DNA of 64,000 nucleotides from contig NZ_KB893433.1 of NCBI RefSeq assembly GCF_000374085.1, positions 1 through 64,000 of the forward strand, in the 5' to 3' direction. Numbering within the stretch: the first letter of the stretch is position 1; each line of letters starts with the position of its first letter. The notes under the pieces were generated by a model that made no database searches, had not been told where the DNA came from, and worked only from the letters and a program-made list of their open reading frames with translations. Position numbers and translations under genes: made by a program. Below are positions 1,391 to 6,682 of the stretch, one piece after another. The DNA comes from Spirosoma spitsbergense DSM 19989. GTDB lineage: Bacteria > Bacteroidota > Bacteroidia > Cytophagales > Spirosomataceae.

Positions 1391-1479
1391 AAACGGTCTT
1401 TCTGAGTCAATTTGAGAATGCAAGAACGAAATCTCTAAAAGTAAGAACACTAATTTATGACCATTCAACCTATCCTTAA
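1387..1479 (+). pseudogene. Stub of a RelE/ParE-type toxin
   Basis: This frame starts at the ATG overlapping the antitoxin stop and encodes MKTVFLSQFENARTKSLK before running into unrelated sequence and a stop after 30 codons. The opening strand and helix resemble the beginning of RelE/ParE toxins, which are normally 85 to 100 residues. Everything after about residue 18 is missing, and the next gene (ATG 1457) starts inside the tail. I read it as a deletion remnant; the short match makes this tentative. Confidence 0.35.
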
Positions 1480-1771
1480 TCGCAATCTTCCCCGCATCGC
1501 GCAAATTTTGAAACAGAATCAGGTGAAGCGGGCGTATGCGTTTGGATCGGTCTGTACGGAGCGTTTTGGGCCGGATAGCGACGTCGATTTATTAATTGCC
1601 TTCGAGGAGGGTTTGGACCCGGTTACGTACGCCGAAAACTACTTTGCTATTGCCGAAGCCTTGGAAGATCTCCTGCAACGGCCCGTTGACTTAATTACGG
1701 AGTCATCCCTTAAAAATCCGTATTTCATTAAGGTGCTCAACCAAACGAAAACGCCGATTTATGAAGGATGA
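1457..1771 (+). CDS. MntA-like minimal nucleotidyltransferase (antitoxin)
   Basis: The 104-residue protein has the minimal nucleotidyltransferase motif GSx10DxD: G30-S31, then D42-V-D44, and a third acidic position can be placed in the strand around PVDLITES. In the HEPN/MNT toxin-antitoxin family the MNT partner transfers AMP from ATP to a tyrosine of the HEPN toxin and so silences it. The next gene is exactly such a HEPN protein, overlapping by 11 bases. The length is normal for the family. The gene starts about 66 bases after the orphan antitoxin and is the first of three overlapping genes that end in a PLD/J-domain protein. Confidence 0.8.
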   Translation: MTIQPILNRNLPRIAQILKQNQVKRAYAFGSVCTERFGPDSDVDLLIAFEEGLDPVTYAENYFAIAEALEDLLQRPVDLITESSLKNPYFIKVLNQTKTPIYEG

Positions 1772-2102
1772 AGCCCGTAAGTATTTGTTTGACATATCAG
1801 AAGCCATTACCCACATTGATTTGCATTTGGGTGGCACTCGTGATTTTGTGCTGTTTTCCAGAAACCTCACGATTCAGCGGGCGGTTGAGCGAGAGCTGGA
1901 AATTATTGGTGAAGCCATGAGCCGATTGCTCAAATTACCTAATCCCGTCACTGTATCCCATGCACGCCAGATTGTTAACCTGCGGAACCGGGTTATTCAT
2001 GCCTACGATGCCGTCGATTTAGTTACCATCTGGGGTGTTATTAATAAAAGCCTTCCGTTGCTGGCAGACGAAGTACAAGCCCTGCTCAACTTGCCCGATT
2101 GA
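1761..2102 (+). CDS. HepT-like HEPN-domain protein (DUF86 toxin)
   Basis: The 113-residue all-helical protein carries R75-NRVI-H80-A-Y82, a perfect match to the Rx4HxY motif of HepT toxins. In known pairs R and H form the RNase centre and the Y is the residue adenylylated by MntA. The start overlaps the MNT gene by 11 bases, and the TGA stop overlaps the ATG of the next gene (TGATG at 2100-2104), so the three are probably translated as a coupled set. The expected activity is cytoplasmic RNA cleavage, kept off by the MNT partner. The motif is intact, so there is no sign that the toxin is dead. Confidence 0.82.
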   Translation: MKDEARKYLFDISEAITHIDLHLGGTRDFVLFSRNLTIQRAVERELEIIGEAMSRLLKLPNPVTVSHARQIVNLRNRVIHAYDAVDLVTIWGVINKSLPLLADEVQALLNLPD

Positions 2103-3454
2103 TGGAAACCACCGCTCACTTCACCCACATTTACGAAACAATTATTGCCGAGTTACAAAAGGCTCGACAAAGTGTGTACGTGGCAGTGGCGTGGTTTACG
2201 GATCGGGATTTGTTTCAGTGCCTTTGCGAACGGGCAGCAACGGGCATTCGAGTGAAGTTAATGCTTACGAATGATACGATCAATTTCCGGGAGGGTGGAC
2301 TGCCGTTTGATAGGTTGAGTCAGGCAGGAGGACAGGTCTATATCATCGGTTCTGGTGGTGAGAAACAAACGCTGATGCACAATAAGTTCTGCGTTATTGA
2401 TGAACAAACGGTCATTACCGGCTCGTTCAACTGGAGCTACAAAGCCCGGCAAAATCACGAGAACATTACCATCACCACTGATGCGGAGTCGTTAGCCAGA
2501 CAGTTTGTAGCCGAATTTCGGCAATTACGCGACCGCTACATACGAGTTCCCGATAAAGCCCCGCTCGATCTTGGCAAGGTGCTCAAACGACTCGATCTCA
2601 TCAAAACGCTGATCGCGTTGGACGAACCCGACGACCTTAAACCGCATATTGATAAACTGGCCCAACAACAGCTACCGGAAGACCTGGAGAAAATTGTCGC
2701 TTTGCTCCAAGGCAATCAATTTGCCGAAGCCGTTAGCCGGATTGATCTGTTCGGAAAACAGTATACCACGCTTACCGCTTATGTGGATGCCGAATTGAGT
2801 GGGTTGAAAATCGAAATCCGAATTCTGGAACTACAGGTGAAAGCACTAGAAGCCGAAAAGGCCGACATGGAAAAACTGCTCCATGAATTCAGCGTCCAGC
2901 ACTCGCTCCACCTCGGCGACCTCATTCTGAAACTTCTCAACCTCCGCCGGAAACAGGCGATTACTGATGAGGAACGCACCGAAGCCGAAACGGATTACAC
3001 CCAGTATAGCCAGGAATACGCCGAAACCCGGCAGCAACCCCGTTTCGAGTTGTCAGCTGATGAACAGAAGGAATTGAAACGAAGGTTTCGGAAAGCGGCC
3101 CAGCTTTGCCACCCCGATGTAGTGGCCAAAGCCCTCAAAACACAGGCAGAAAGCCTTTTTAATGAGCTTAAATTAGCCAACGACCGTAACGACCTGACCC
3201 GCGTAACGGAAATTCTGGCAACCCTGGAACGGGGAGACACGTTTGTTTCCCGCTCCGAAACCGTCACCGAGAAAGCACTGCTAAAACATGAGCGAACACG
3301 GTTGCAAGCCCTCACTGCGCAGTTACAAACGGAGGTTCAGGCGTTGCAGCAATCGACCCAATATCAAACGGTTAGCCAGTTACCGGATTGGGCCAGCTAC
3401 TTCGCCGAAAAACGGCAGCAACTGGCCCAACAACTGGAAGAATTAGCGGTGTAG
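2102..3454 (+). CDS. Phospholipase D-like nuclease fused to coiled coil and J-domain
   Basis: From ATG 2102 the protein is 450 residues. Residues 1-150 form one PLD-type domain with the catalytic signature H93-N-K95-x4-D100 followed by GSFNW. Residues about 200-300 are strongly helical, with a long coiled coil. Residues about 315-370 hold a J-domain-like helix pair around an HPD triplet (QLCHPDVV, near residue 336), which in DnaJ proteins contacts DnaK. A second coiled coil closes the protein. One HKD motif means it would work as a dimer. PLD domains of this short type are often nucleases in defence systems. The ATG overlaps the stop of the HEPN gene, so it belongs to that operon. A TTG at 2099 is less likely. 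Substrate and role are unknown. Confidence 0.7.
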   Translation: METTAHFTHIYETIIAELQKARQSVYVAVAWFTDRDLFQCLCERAATGIRVKLMLTNDTINFREGGLPFDRLSQAGGQVYIIGSGGEKQTLMHNKFCVIDEQTVITGSFNWSYKARQNHENITITTDAESLARQFVAEFRQLRDRYIRVPDKAPLDLGKVLKRLDLIKTLIALDEPDDLKPHIDKLAQQQLPEDLEKIVALLQGNQFAEAVSRIDLFGKQYTTLTAYVDAELSGLKIEIRILELQVKALEAEKADMEKLLHEFSVQHSLHLGDLILKLLNLRRKQAITDEERTEAETDYTQYSQEYAETRQQPRFELSADEQKELKRRFRKAAQLCHPDVVAKALKTQAESLFNELKLANDRNDLTRVTEILATLERGDTFVSRSETVTEKALLKHERTRLQALTAQLQTEVQALQQSTQYQTVSQLPDWASYFAEKRQQLAQQLEELAV

Positions 3455-4516: not shown

Positions 4517-5785
4517 CTATAGCCCTGTCATGCTGTCGTCCAAACGTACCGAAAATAATGCTTTCGATTTGGCATATACATAGCTCACCACTCCCAGCGT
4601 AACTAAACCGCCTAAGGCCACTGATGGTACCGTACCCAGCAAACTGGCCATCAACCCCGACTCGAACGCACCAATCTCGTTCGATGAACTAATGAATATG
4701 CCGTTCACAGCTGCTACACGCCCGCGCATGTGGTCGGGTGGAAAAATCTGCAGAATTGTTTGCCGGATAATCACGCTGATACTGTCGAATGCACCCGTCA
4801 AGGCAAGCATAAAGAGGGACAGATAAAAACTGGTGGATAGCGCAAAGACGAGGGTAGCCACCCCAAAACCCAGCACGGCCAGCAACATATTCCGCCAGGC
4901 GTTATGCGTTGGTGGGTGTTTGGTCATGTACGCCATTGTCAGCAAGGCACCGATAGATGGAGCTGCCCGCAGGAAACCAAGCCCCTCGGCCCCAACTTTT
5001 AAAATATCTTCGGCAAAAACCGGCAAGATAGCCACCACGCCCCCAAACAGTACCGAGAATAAATCGAGCGAGATGGCATAGAATACAATCTGGGTGTTGA
5101 ATACAAACCGAAATCCCTCTTTCAGACTCTCCAGAAAATTCTTCGCGGGTTCATTGCTTACGAGTACGGGCCTGGGTTTAATCAACGTAAGCAACAGGAA
5201 ACAGACAGCCAGCAAAACGATAACAAAAATCAGCGTATTGTCGAAACCAAACCAACTGTACAGAAACCCGGCAATGCCCGGCCCGGCAATGGCTCCGGCC
5301 TGCCAGAATGAACTGCTCCAGGTGGCCGAGTTGGTGTATAATTCGCGGGGGACCAGAAACGGTTTCAGCGAGGAGCTGGCCGGTGAGTAAAATCCTTTAG
5401 CTGTGCCAATCAGCATGATTACCCCGTAGATAATAACCAATTGCATGGTTCGCGAAAGGCCGGAAACAACAGATGGTTGAAAAGCCAGATACAGGATAAC
5501 AGAGCCAAGCAGGATAACCAGCAAACTCCACTGCAAAATACGTTTCTTGTCGCGCCGGTCGGCGAGGTGCCCGCCAAACAGTGAAAGGGCAATGAACGGT
5601 AACGCTTCGGCCAGGCCCACCAATCCCAGTGCCAGCGGATCATGCGTCATTTTGTACAGTTCGTAACCCAGTGTAACTTCCTGAATCAGCAGCGTAGCCG
5701 TGATCAGGAAACTGTTCATAACGAAGTAACGAAAATCGGGGATGCGCAACGAAGCAAACGCATCGGGAGGGGTCAGTGGCACCAT
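4517..5785 (-). CDS. MFS transporter, EntS-like
   Basis: The 422-residue membrane protein has about twelve hydrophobic segments and the conserved GGHLADRRDKKR loop between segments 2 and 3 of major facilitator proteins. Its start, ALRIPDFRYF, is typical for the MFS_3/EntS-like exporters, many of which export siderophores or drugs. Substrate is unknown. It is divergent from the TrpF-like gene, and a short palindrome (5796-5811) lies between them. The ATG at 5785 leaves a 55-base shared promoter region. Confidence 0.75.
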   Translation of the reverse strand: MVPLTPPDAFASLRIPDFRYFVMNSFLITATLLIQEVTLGYELYKMTHDPLALGLVGLAEALPFIALSLFGGHLADRRDKKRILQWSLLVILLGSVILYLAFQPSVVSGLSRTMQLVIIYGVIMLIGTAKGFYSPASSSLKPFLVPRELYTNSATWSSSFWQAGAIAGPGIAGFLYSWFGFDNTLIFVIVLLAVCFLLLTLIKPRPVLVSNEPAKNFLESLKEGFRFVFNTQIVFYAISLDLFSVLFGGVVAILPVFAEDILKVGAEGLGFLRAAPSIGALLTMAYMTKHPPTHNAWRNMLLAVLGFGVATLVFALSTSFYLSLFMLALTGAFDSISVIIRQTILQIFPPDHMRGRVAAVNGIFISSSNEIGAFESGLMASLLGTVPSVALGGLVTLGVVSYVYAKSKALFSVRLDDSMTGL

Positions 5786-5795
5786 TCAGACACAA

Positions 5796-5822
5796 GTCGT
5801 ATGTTTACGACGTATATTTTTG
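5796..5822. promoter_or_regulatory. Palindrome and -7 element between MFS and TrpF-like genes
   Basis: The 16-base palindrome GTCGTATGTTTACGAC (5796-5811) has 6-bp perfect arms and sits in the 55-base gap between two divergent starts, a usual place for a repressor site. A TATTTTTG (5815-5822) matches the Bacteroidetes -7 consensus TAnnTTTG and would drive the plus-strand gene. No good TTG at the right distance upstream was found. No regulator gene is adjacent. Confidence 0.35.
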
Positions 5823-5840
5823 CTTACTCAACCGAAAACA

Positions 5841-6209
5841 ATGGAATCTCCGTTCCGAACAAGGGTTAAAATTTGTTGTATCAGCAGCCTGGAAGAAGCC
5901 CGGTTAGCCATCCTGTTCGGGGCCGATGCGCTGGGGCTGGATTCCGGCAATCCAACTCTTGCCCTAAAAGAACTGGGCGGTACGGGCCGGGTACATAACT
6001 GGCGGGAGAGTCGGCAAATCGTAGCGCAATCGCAGGTACCGGTTTTTCTGGTCGGCGGGTCGAATCCCGAAAATGTGCAAAAGGCGCTGGAGTCGGTTCA
6101 GCCCTACGGACTCGACATTTGCAGTGGCGTCCGTACCAACGGGCACCTGGATGCGCACAAACTGGAAGCGTTTATGCAGGTAGTCCGGAACCTACTTTTG
6201 CGGCTATAA
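5841..6209 (+). CDS. TrpF-like (phosphoribosylanthranilate isomerase-like) protein with internal deletion
   Basis: The 122-residue protein starts TRVKICCISSLEEARLAI, matches the VKICGIT start of TrpF, and ends with VFLVGGSNPENVQKAL and LDICSGVRTNG, matching the phosphate-binding end of that TIM barrel. The middle is missing: GADALGL, close to the end of strand 2, runs straight into DSGNPTLALKELGGTGR, which in full-length members of the KICC subgroup lies near strand 6. About 90 residues are therefore absent while the frame is kept. A complete barrel cannot form, so the protein is probably inactive. ATG 5841 was preferred to a longer upstream frame that overlaps the MFS start. Confidence 0.65.
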   Translation: MESPFRTRVKICCISSLEEARLAILFGADALGLDSGNPTLALKELGGTGRVHNWRESRQIVAQSQVPVFLVGGSNPENVQKALESVQPYGLDICSGVRTNGHLDAHKLEAFMQVVRNLLLRL

Positions 6210-6211
6210 AA

Positions 6212-6239
6212 AAAGCCCGCGCTAATCAGCACGGGCTTT
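6212..6239. terminator. Bidirectional terminator hairpin
   Basis: A 12-bp stem with one mismatch (6212-6223 with 6228-6239, loop AATC) has an A-run on one side and a T-run on the other. It lies just after the stop of the TrpF-like gene and 20 bases beyond the stop of the converging hsp20 gene, so it can serve both. Confidence 0.8.
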
Positions 6240-6259
6240 CCGATTGATGAAAAAGGCCA

Positions 6260-6682
6260 TTAGGCAACGGCAATCTCTTTCACTAACTTCTCTTCTTTTG
6301 CTTCAATTTTTGGTAGTTCAACCGTCAAAATTCCGTCGGTATAAGCAGCCTTAATTTCGTCGGCGTTCACGTTTTTGGGCAGACGAAAACTACGTTCAAA
6401 CGAGTTGAAGGAAAACTCCTGACGGGTAAATTTATCCGTCGTTTCTTCGTTTTTCTGCTCAGACTGGTACCCAATCGTGAGGTTATTTTTCTCTACGTTG
6501 ATTTTCAGGTCCTCTTTTTTCAGGCCGGGAGCGGCTAGTTCGAGAACAAATGCCGTTTCGGTTTCTTTCACATTCACCGCCGGTACATTAGGCGTTGTGT
6601 TATAATACCGATTGATTACAGGACGACCGTAAAATGGATTGAAAAAAGTGGGGAGTTGATTATAGCGAGCTAAGGTTGCCAT
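6260..6682 (-). CDS. Small heat shock protein, Hsp20 family
   Basis: The 140-residue protein has a short N-terminal arm and an alpha-crystallin domain from about residue 35 to 130. The domain contains the family ELAAPGLKKEDLKI block, the RSFRLPKNV strand, and AAYTDGILTVELPK near the end. It is a cytoplasmic holdase chaperone that keeps unfolding proteins soluble. The usual C-terminal I-x-I anchor is represented by KEIAVA, so oligomer contacts may be altered. It is a single-gene unit; a 19-bp inverted repeat sits 87 bases upstream and may be involved in its regulation. Confidence 0.92.
   Translation of the reverse strand: MATLARYNQLPTFFNPFYGRPVINRYYNTTPNVPAVNVKETETAFVLELAAPGLKKEDLKINVEKNNLTIGYQSEQKNEETTDKFTRQEFSFNSFERSFRLPKNVNADEIKAAYTDGILTVELPKIEAKEEKLVKEIAVA

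Follow-up and report, generated by a model that had tools for sequence, protein, structure and literature searches.

Gene content of the locus

The window, meaning the whole 64,000-nucleotide stretch of Spirosoma spitsbergense DNA that was analysed, contains a short TrpF-like gene flanked by an MFS transporter gene and an Hsp20 family gene. The features of this locus are the following.

4517..5785, minus strand: MFS transporter gene, a syntenic neighbour, divergent from the short gene
5786..5840, no strand: upstream gap of 55 bp, common to the short gene and the divergent MFS gene
5841..6209, plus strand: internally deleted KICC-type TrpF paralogue, 122 codons and a stop (open reading frame; PRAI profile, 49.8 bits; 312-bp gap against S. 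luteum)
5919..5945, plus strand: fusion point, where the beta2 segment GADALGL is joined to the DSG of the beta6 segment
6210..6241, minus strand: terminator-like hairpin between the convergent genes (folding energy -22.3 kcal/mol on the minus strand, -17.1 kcal/mol on the plus strand)
6260..6682, minus strand: Hsp20 family gene, a syntenic neighbour, convergent with the short gene

The open reading frame at 5841-6209 encodes 122 residues, in which a KICC block near the N-terminus and a VGGSNPENVQKAL/SGVR block flank a gap, with the fusion at GLDSGNP, just as the first-pass annotation had read the translation. Residues 34-113 match the C-terminal part of the Pfam PRAI (TrpF) profile; the motifs of the KICC-type family are present (KICC, LDSG, LGGTG and CSGVR), and the MFS-hsp20 neighbourhood is kept. 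In particular, C12 and D34 align with the family-invariant C12 and D138, positions that we take to be the catalytic Cys and Asp of TrpF. The closest relative compared, S. luteum, has a 220-residue orthologue between the same divergent MFS gene and convergent hsp20 gene. The window copy runs on for six codons beyond the point where the S. luteum gene stops; as C-terminal length is variable among the relatives, this extension carries no weight. Beyond hsp20, S. luteum carries an IS200-like transposase gene (PF01797; L034:3952-4386, minus strand) where the window has a TPR gene.

Within its own genome, the short protein as query finds no second copy of the KICC-type subfamily at an E-value of 0.001, and the full-length protein finds only the gene's two halves and, weakly, the trpF of the trp operon. 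A scan for the PRAI family returns three genes: the window gene, the trp-operon trpF and, with a weak score, a third paralogue. A second, intact trpF, for which the first-pass annotation had advised looking, is thus at hand: the canonical gene sits intact between trpC and trpB in the trp operon and, because it is kept there, tryptophan synthesis should not depend on the KICC-type gene. The third paralogue (G000:C237, L004:1480-2115, plus strand; 26.4 bits) is very divergent, with VKISN in place of the KIC of TrpF, so that the usual Cys is missing.

Elsewhere in the window, positions 1457-2102 (plus strand) hold adjacent genes for a nucleotidyltransferase (PF01909) and a HepT-like ribonuclease (PF01934), by domain a toxin-antitoxin pair of the MNT/HepT type; the nucleotidyltransferase gene also matches PADLOC PDC-S09. 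The next gene (2099-3454, plus strand) overlaps the end of the HepT gene and encodes a protein whose N-terminal domain is PLD-like; close to the C-terminus there is a weak DnaJ match that stays below the cut-off, and PADLOC gives weak matches to DrmC.

The deletion and its junction

Aligned with full-length KICC-type TrpF proteins of related genomes, as the first-pass annotation had proposed, the window copy differs from the 220-residue S. luteum orthologue by a single gap of exactly 312 bp, or 104 codons; the earlier estimate of about 90 residues was too low. The middle strands of the barrel are indeed removed: mapped onto the strands of the intact protein from S. luteum, the loss covers residues 34-137. 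It takes away beta3-beta5 whole and joins the first part of beta2 to the last part of beta6. Moreover, 12 of the 41 family-invariant residues lie in the deleted stretch, and the MPSGPG loop is missing too.

At the junction, the window sequence matches the beta2 copy as far as GGG and then, starting with GAT, the beta6 copy; the word GCTGG at 5936-5940 is found in S. luteum at each of the two parental sites. In all of the 30 intact genes checked (25 from Spirosoma and five from two sister genera), the distance from the beta2 segment (GADALGL) to the beta6 segment (e.g. GVDALLLD) is 312 bp. The corresponding 24-bp stretches are identical at 11-18 of 24 bases (mean 14.7), compared with a background mean of 6.0-6.6 for all pairs of 24-mers within the same genes. 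In S. luteum the repeats share 16 of 24 bases, a likeness equalled by about 0.01% of in-frame pairs; for the weakest pair (L125), 2.6% of all pairs are equally alike. At the protein level, alpha1-beta2 and alpha5-beta6 of S. luteum are alike at 8 of 18 residues, a likeness also visible as overlapping hits. The imperfect repeats exist because these two parts of the barrel resemble each other in sequence, which fits the two-fold symmetry of the barrel. Short-homology recombination or replication slippage is the likely event behind the loss, and the reading frame would have survived by itself because the repeat spacing is a multiple of three.

The assembly is a draft of 237 contigs, and the gap could in principle be an artefact that hides an intact gene. 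Yet the repeats are imperfect and share an exact word of at most five bases at the crossover, which should be too short to collapse in assembly; moreover, the junction lies inside contig C47, and both of its sides bear the window's own substitutions. An artefact is accordingly very unlikely.

The intact KICC-type family

Intact relatives match the whole PRAI profile (PF00697; 80 bits for S. luteum) and align with T. maritima TrpF (1LBM/1NSJ) over residues 7-203, with the KIC Cys and the LLD Asp kept. Against the NCBIfam model for PRA isomerase, whose cut-off is 215 bits, the KICC-type protein scores 117.6 bits; since the trp-operon TrpF of the same genome also falls below it (188.9 bits), this cut-off does not separate the two. 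In contrast to T. maritima TrpF, the family has an invariant Gly42 (64 of 64 intact proteins) at the position of Arg36, presumably a substrate-binding residue. The window copy has lost Gly42 with the deletion and differs further from TrpF and PRA isomerase in being without 104 residues of the barrel. From these sequence features, the KICC-type family is probably an enzyme with another substrate.

Relatives are encoded in 127 stretches; the best 80 of these 127 come from Bacteroidota, Ignavibacteria and several proteobacteria, among others. The gene neighbours could be read at 72 of the 80 loci, the other eight giving no gene under the search pattern. Across the 72 readable loci no partner gene is common to most. 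The MFS and hsp20 neighbours each recur in eight loci, from Spirosoma and Larkinella, and one transporter cluster adjoins intact KICC-type genes in seven loci from several phyla (L069, L062, L088, L082, L085, L090 and L113), the three members scanned being EamA proteins. A GNAT acetyltransferase cluster, of which one member was scanned, recurs in six of the 72. The transporter and MFS neighbours are at most suggestive of a transport link for the family. In the literature surveyed, the titles and the openings of abstracts listed name neither the KICC-type family nor the 312-bp deletion of the window gene.

Distribution of the short form in Spirosoma

The S. luteum protein was searched in 36 Spirosoma genomes and matched 32. 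An uninterrupted full-length gene is present in 27 of the 36, S. luteum included, and the 312-bp deletion form in one, the window genome. In G032 the gene is split over two frames by a frameshift, which may be a sequencing error; in G026, G027 and G035 it is cut by contig ends. The search returned no match in G012, G025, G029 and G030, among which G025 and G029 are 84% and 71% complete. In G012, G025 and G030 the MFS, hsp20 and TPR genes are adjacent with no TrpF-like gene among them, and tblastn (E below 0.5) found no TrpF-like sequence at their MFS-hsp20 loci.

These counts bear on whether the short gene is an old small domain, conserved as such, which the first-pass annotation had tied to finding the same short form in many relatives. 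The form was looked for in the 36 genomes and is confined to one, with full-length genes at the site in 27. Further, a phylogenetic tree places the window copy as sister to the full-length S. luteum gene, and a by-eye count gives 96 uninterrupted full-length matches in 222 genomes of the family, two of them only 50% identical. On the genomes searched, an old small domain can be set aside with near certainty.

Remnants in other genera

Among the 222 family genomes, 151 have a match of any kind, a figure that takes in weak hits to other TrpF-like genes. When 390 genomes were drawn from the order, 66 matched at an E-value of 1e-9, and the short or broken matches listed were those already found in the family. 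Nine genomes with short or broken matches supplied ten stretches, which were examined for decay. The copy in G106 has a frameshift and a stop, that in G115 is a broken remnant, that in G032 is frameshifted, and that in G195 has lost its frame through an internal deletion. G086 contains two remnants; one of them (L147:447-659, plus strand) joins the start of alpha1 in frame to beta7, leaving a 71-residue open reading frame from ATG to stop. In G161, alpha1 is joined in frame to alpha7 and the frame reads on past the normal end. The copies in G085, G027 and G035 end at contig boundaries.

In total there are four clear internal deletions, the window's included, with breakpoints that all differ; three of the four are in frame, for which the hand-calculated probability is 0.11 at a one-in-three chance each, in a small set. 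The scattered short forms are repeated losses of one gene, not a conserved short form. The two in-frame deletions besides the window's, L147:447-659 and L150:411-827 (both plus strand), come from other genera and have breakpoints unlike the window's.

Substitutions and selection

Over 111 shared codons, omega on the window branch is 0.234 (range about 0.08 to 1.3) against a background of 0.093; a test of equality gives p = 0.10, and a test against omega = 1 gives p = 0.071. The S. luteum branch has an omega of 0.055, and omega = 1 is rejected there (p = 0.00014). Pairwise, omega between the window copy and S. luteum is 0.086; three neighbouring genes give 0.042-0.070, with dS of 0.53-0.74. The two proteins differ at 13 amino acids, of which seven are window-derived, one is S. 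luteum-derived and five are left unassigned by the rule used. Three of the seven window-derived changes put V, S and E where 29 of 29 others have A, L, and V or I, respectively. Two positions that are near-invariant in relatives, A175 (64 of 64) and L178 (63 of 64), are altered, A175 to V. Private residues do not decide the matter: the window copy has seven, a count reached by 3 of 65 alignment rows, but for changes at 90%-conserved columns its value is reached by 21 of 65 rows. Of the two changes that it has at columns invariant elsewhere, one is N-terminal, in a column trimmed from most rows. Together, these comparisons of sequence suggest, without proving it, a late relaxation of selection on the window copy. 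A frame that is still open fits a young deletion; 2.8% of random changes would create a stop.

Flanking signals

The first-pass annotation also held that the gene had kept its frame, promoter and terminator. The frame is open from start to stop; the promoter and terminator bear up only in part. The 55-bp upstream gap contains TATTTTTG at 5815-5822, conserved in S. luteum with one T fewer, which we take to resemble a Bacteroidetes -7 element; this gap also serves the divergent MFS gene. A sigma70 scan, which does not cover Bacteroidetes promoters, found no promoter upstream of the short gene. Downstream, the hairpin at 6210-6241 folds on both strands, but its U-tract lies on the minus strand, where a terminator of hsp20 would have it; the hairpin is not among the calls of a consensus terminator scan. 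Because the neighbouring genes share them, both flanking regions would be retained whether or not the short gene is used, and the retained 'promoter' and 'terminator' say little about its use.

Predicted structure of the short protein

AlphaFold was given a family alignment built from 63 of the 96 listed gene references plus S. luteum, with the window protein added for the short form. Eight strands are predicted in the intact protein of S. luteum (pLDDT 90.1). The window copy, without a complete eight-stranded barrel, is predicted to alternate four strands with four helices (pLDDT 82.6, pTM 0.78), with low confidence at residues 42-47. The model predicts a fusion in register and does not show that the protein folds. 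The top Foldseek matches to the short model are portions of TrpF and thiamine phosphate synthase barrels, and no target under 190 residues is among the 50 matches listed.

The deletion product might be a retained small protein, a (beta-alpha)4 half-barrel with a new role, which would dimerise into a pseudo-barrel or bind phosphate ligands or another barrel. The kept frame, start, stop and flanking signals speak for such a protein, as do the predicted fold with its overall scores and the 71-residue in-frame product of L147 in another genus, with its own start and stop. However, the short form occurs in just one Spirosoma genome, the short forms of other genera have other breakpoints, A175 and L178 are altered, and model confidence is low at residues 42-47; moreover, the alignment consists of full-length proteins, so the confidence may mirror the parent barrel, and the 50 listed Foldseek matches offer no small counterpart. 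A retained protein with a new role is very unlikely. The narrower proposition, that a deletion between the symmetry-related beta2 and beta6 left a natural in-register (beta-alpha)4 half-barrel that may still be made and folded, perhaps as a dimer, is a shade less probable again.

According to excerpts of PMC8250049 and PMC3741200, (beta-alpha)4 half-barrels are known as engineered proteins or from human splice variants. The window protein would be like them in that, by the prediction, four beta-alpha units are left and the fusion preserves their register; it differs from those described there in being a natural bacterial deletion across the middle of a gene, known from its sequence and a predicted monomer. 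A folded product would reverse, in nature, the half-barrel duplication from which TIM barrels are proposed to have arisen. Since the fusion is placed in line with the barrel's internal symmetry, the short protein offers a naturally occurring test of whether a half-barrel can fold; should it not fold, the finding would be an ordinary one.

Origin and meaning of the short gene

The window gene is very probably a recent deletion allele of a dispensable KICC-type TrpF paralogue, in early decay and on its way to loss. In the proposed sequence of events, the Spirosoma ancestor would have had a full-length paralogue of about 220 residues between the MFS and hsp20 genes, and a single deletion, later than the divergence from the lineage of S. 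luteum, would have fused the imperfect direct repeats. The product, without the MPSGPG loop, beta3-beta5 and one of the two fused strands, would be expected to have no enzyme activity. The gene appears to be dispensable in the genus, and the allele would be young and heading for loss.

In support of decay are the full-length syntenic orthologue in S. luteum and its sister place in the tree, the rarity of the short form in Spirosoma, the constant spacing of the repeats, the gene-free sites of G012, G025 and G030, the frameshift in G032, the remnants in G106, G115, G086, G161 and G195, the lost invariant residues with the change at A175, and the intact canonical trpF. Against it stand the open reading frame, selection tests that fall short of proving relaxation, a pairwise omega close to the 0.04-0.07 of the neighbours, the three in-frame deletions among the family's four, and the confident fold predicted for the short chain. 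Overall, early and ordinary gene decay is the most likely course, and is favoured over a new small protein. The first-pass annotation had left a choice between a new role and a recent deletion; the full-length genes in 27 of 36 genomes and the junction on short imperfect repeats bear out the deletion, and the new role found no positive support. In-frame retention is no sign of a new role, because the spacing of the repeats is in frame by itself; nor do the flanking signals, which other genes use, support one. In several relatives, moreover, this gene is missing or broken.

The case resembles the known decay of bacterial genes through deletions between short direct repeats in its imperfect-repeat loss, its dispensable gene and the independent remnants and empty sites in relatives; nothing essential sets it apart, except that the window's frame happens to survive and that the fusion respects the symmetry of the barrel. 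It is thereby a clean case of early decay, in which intact, in-frame deleted, frameshifted and gene-free states are found at one syntenic site in one genus.
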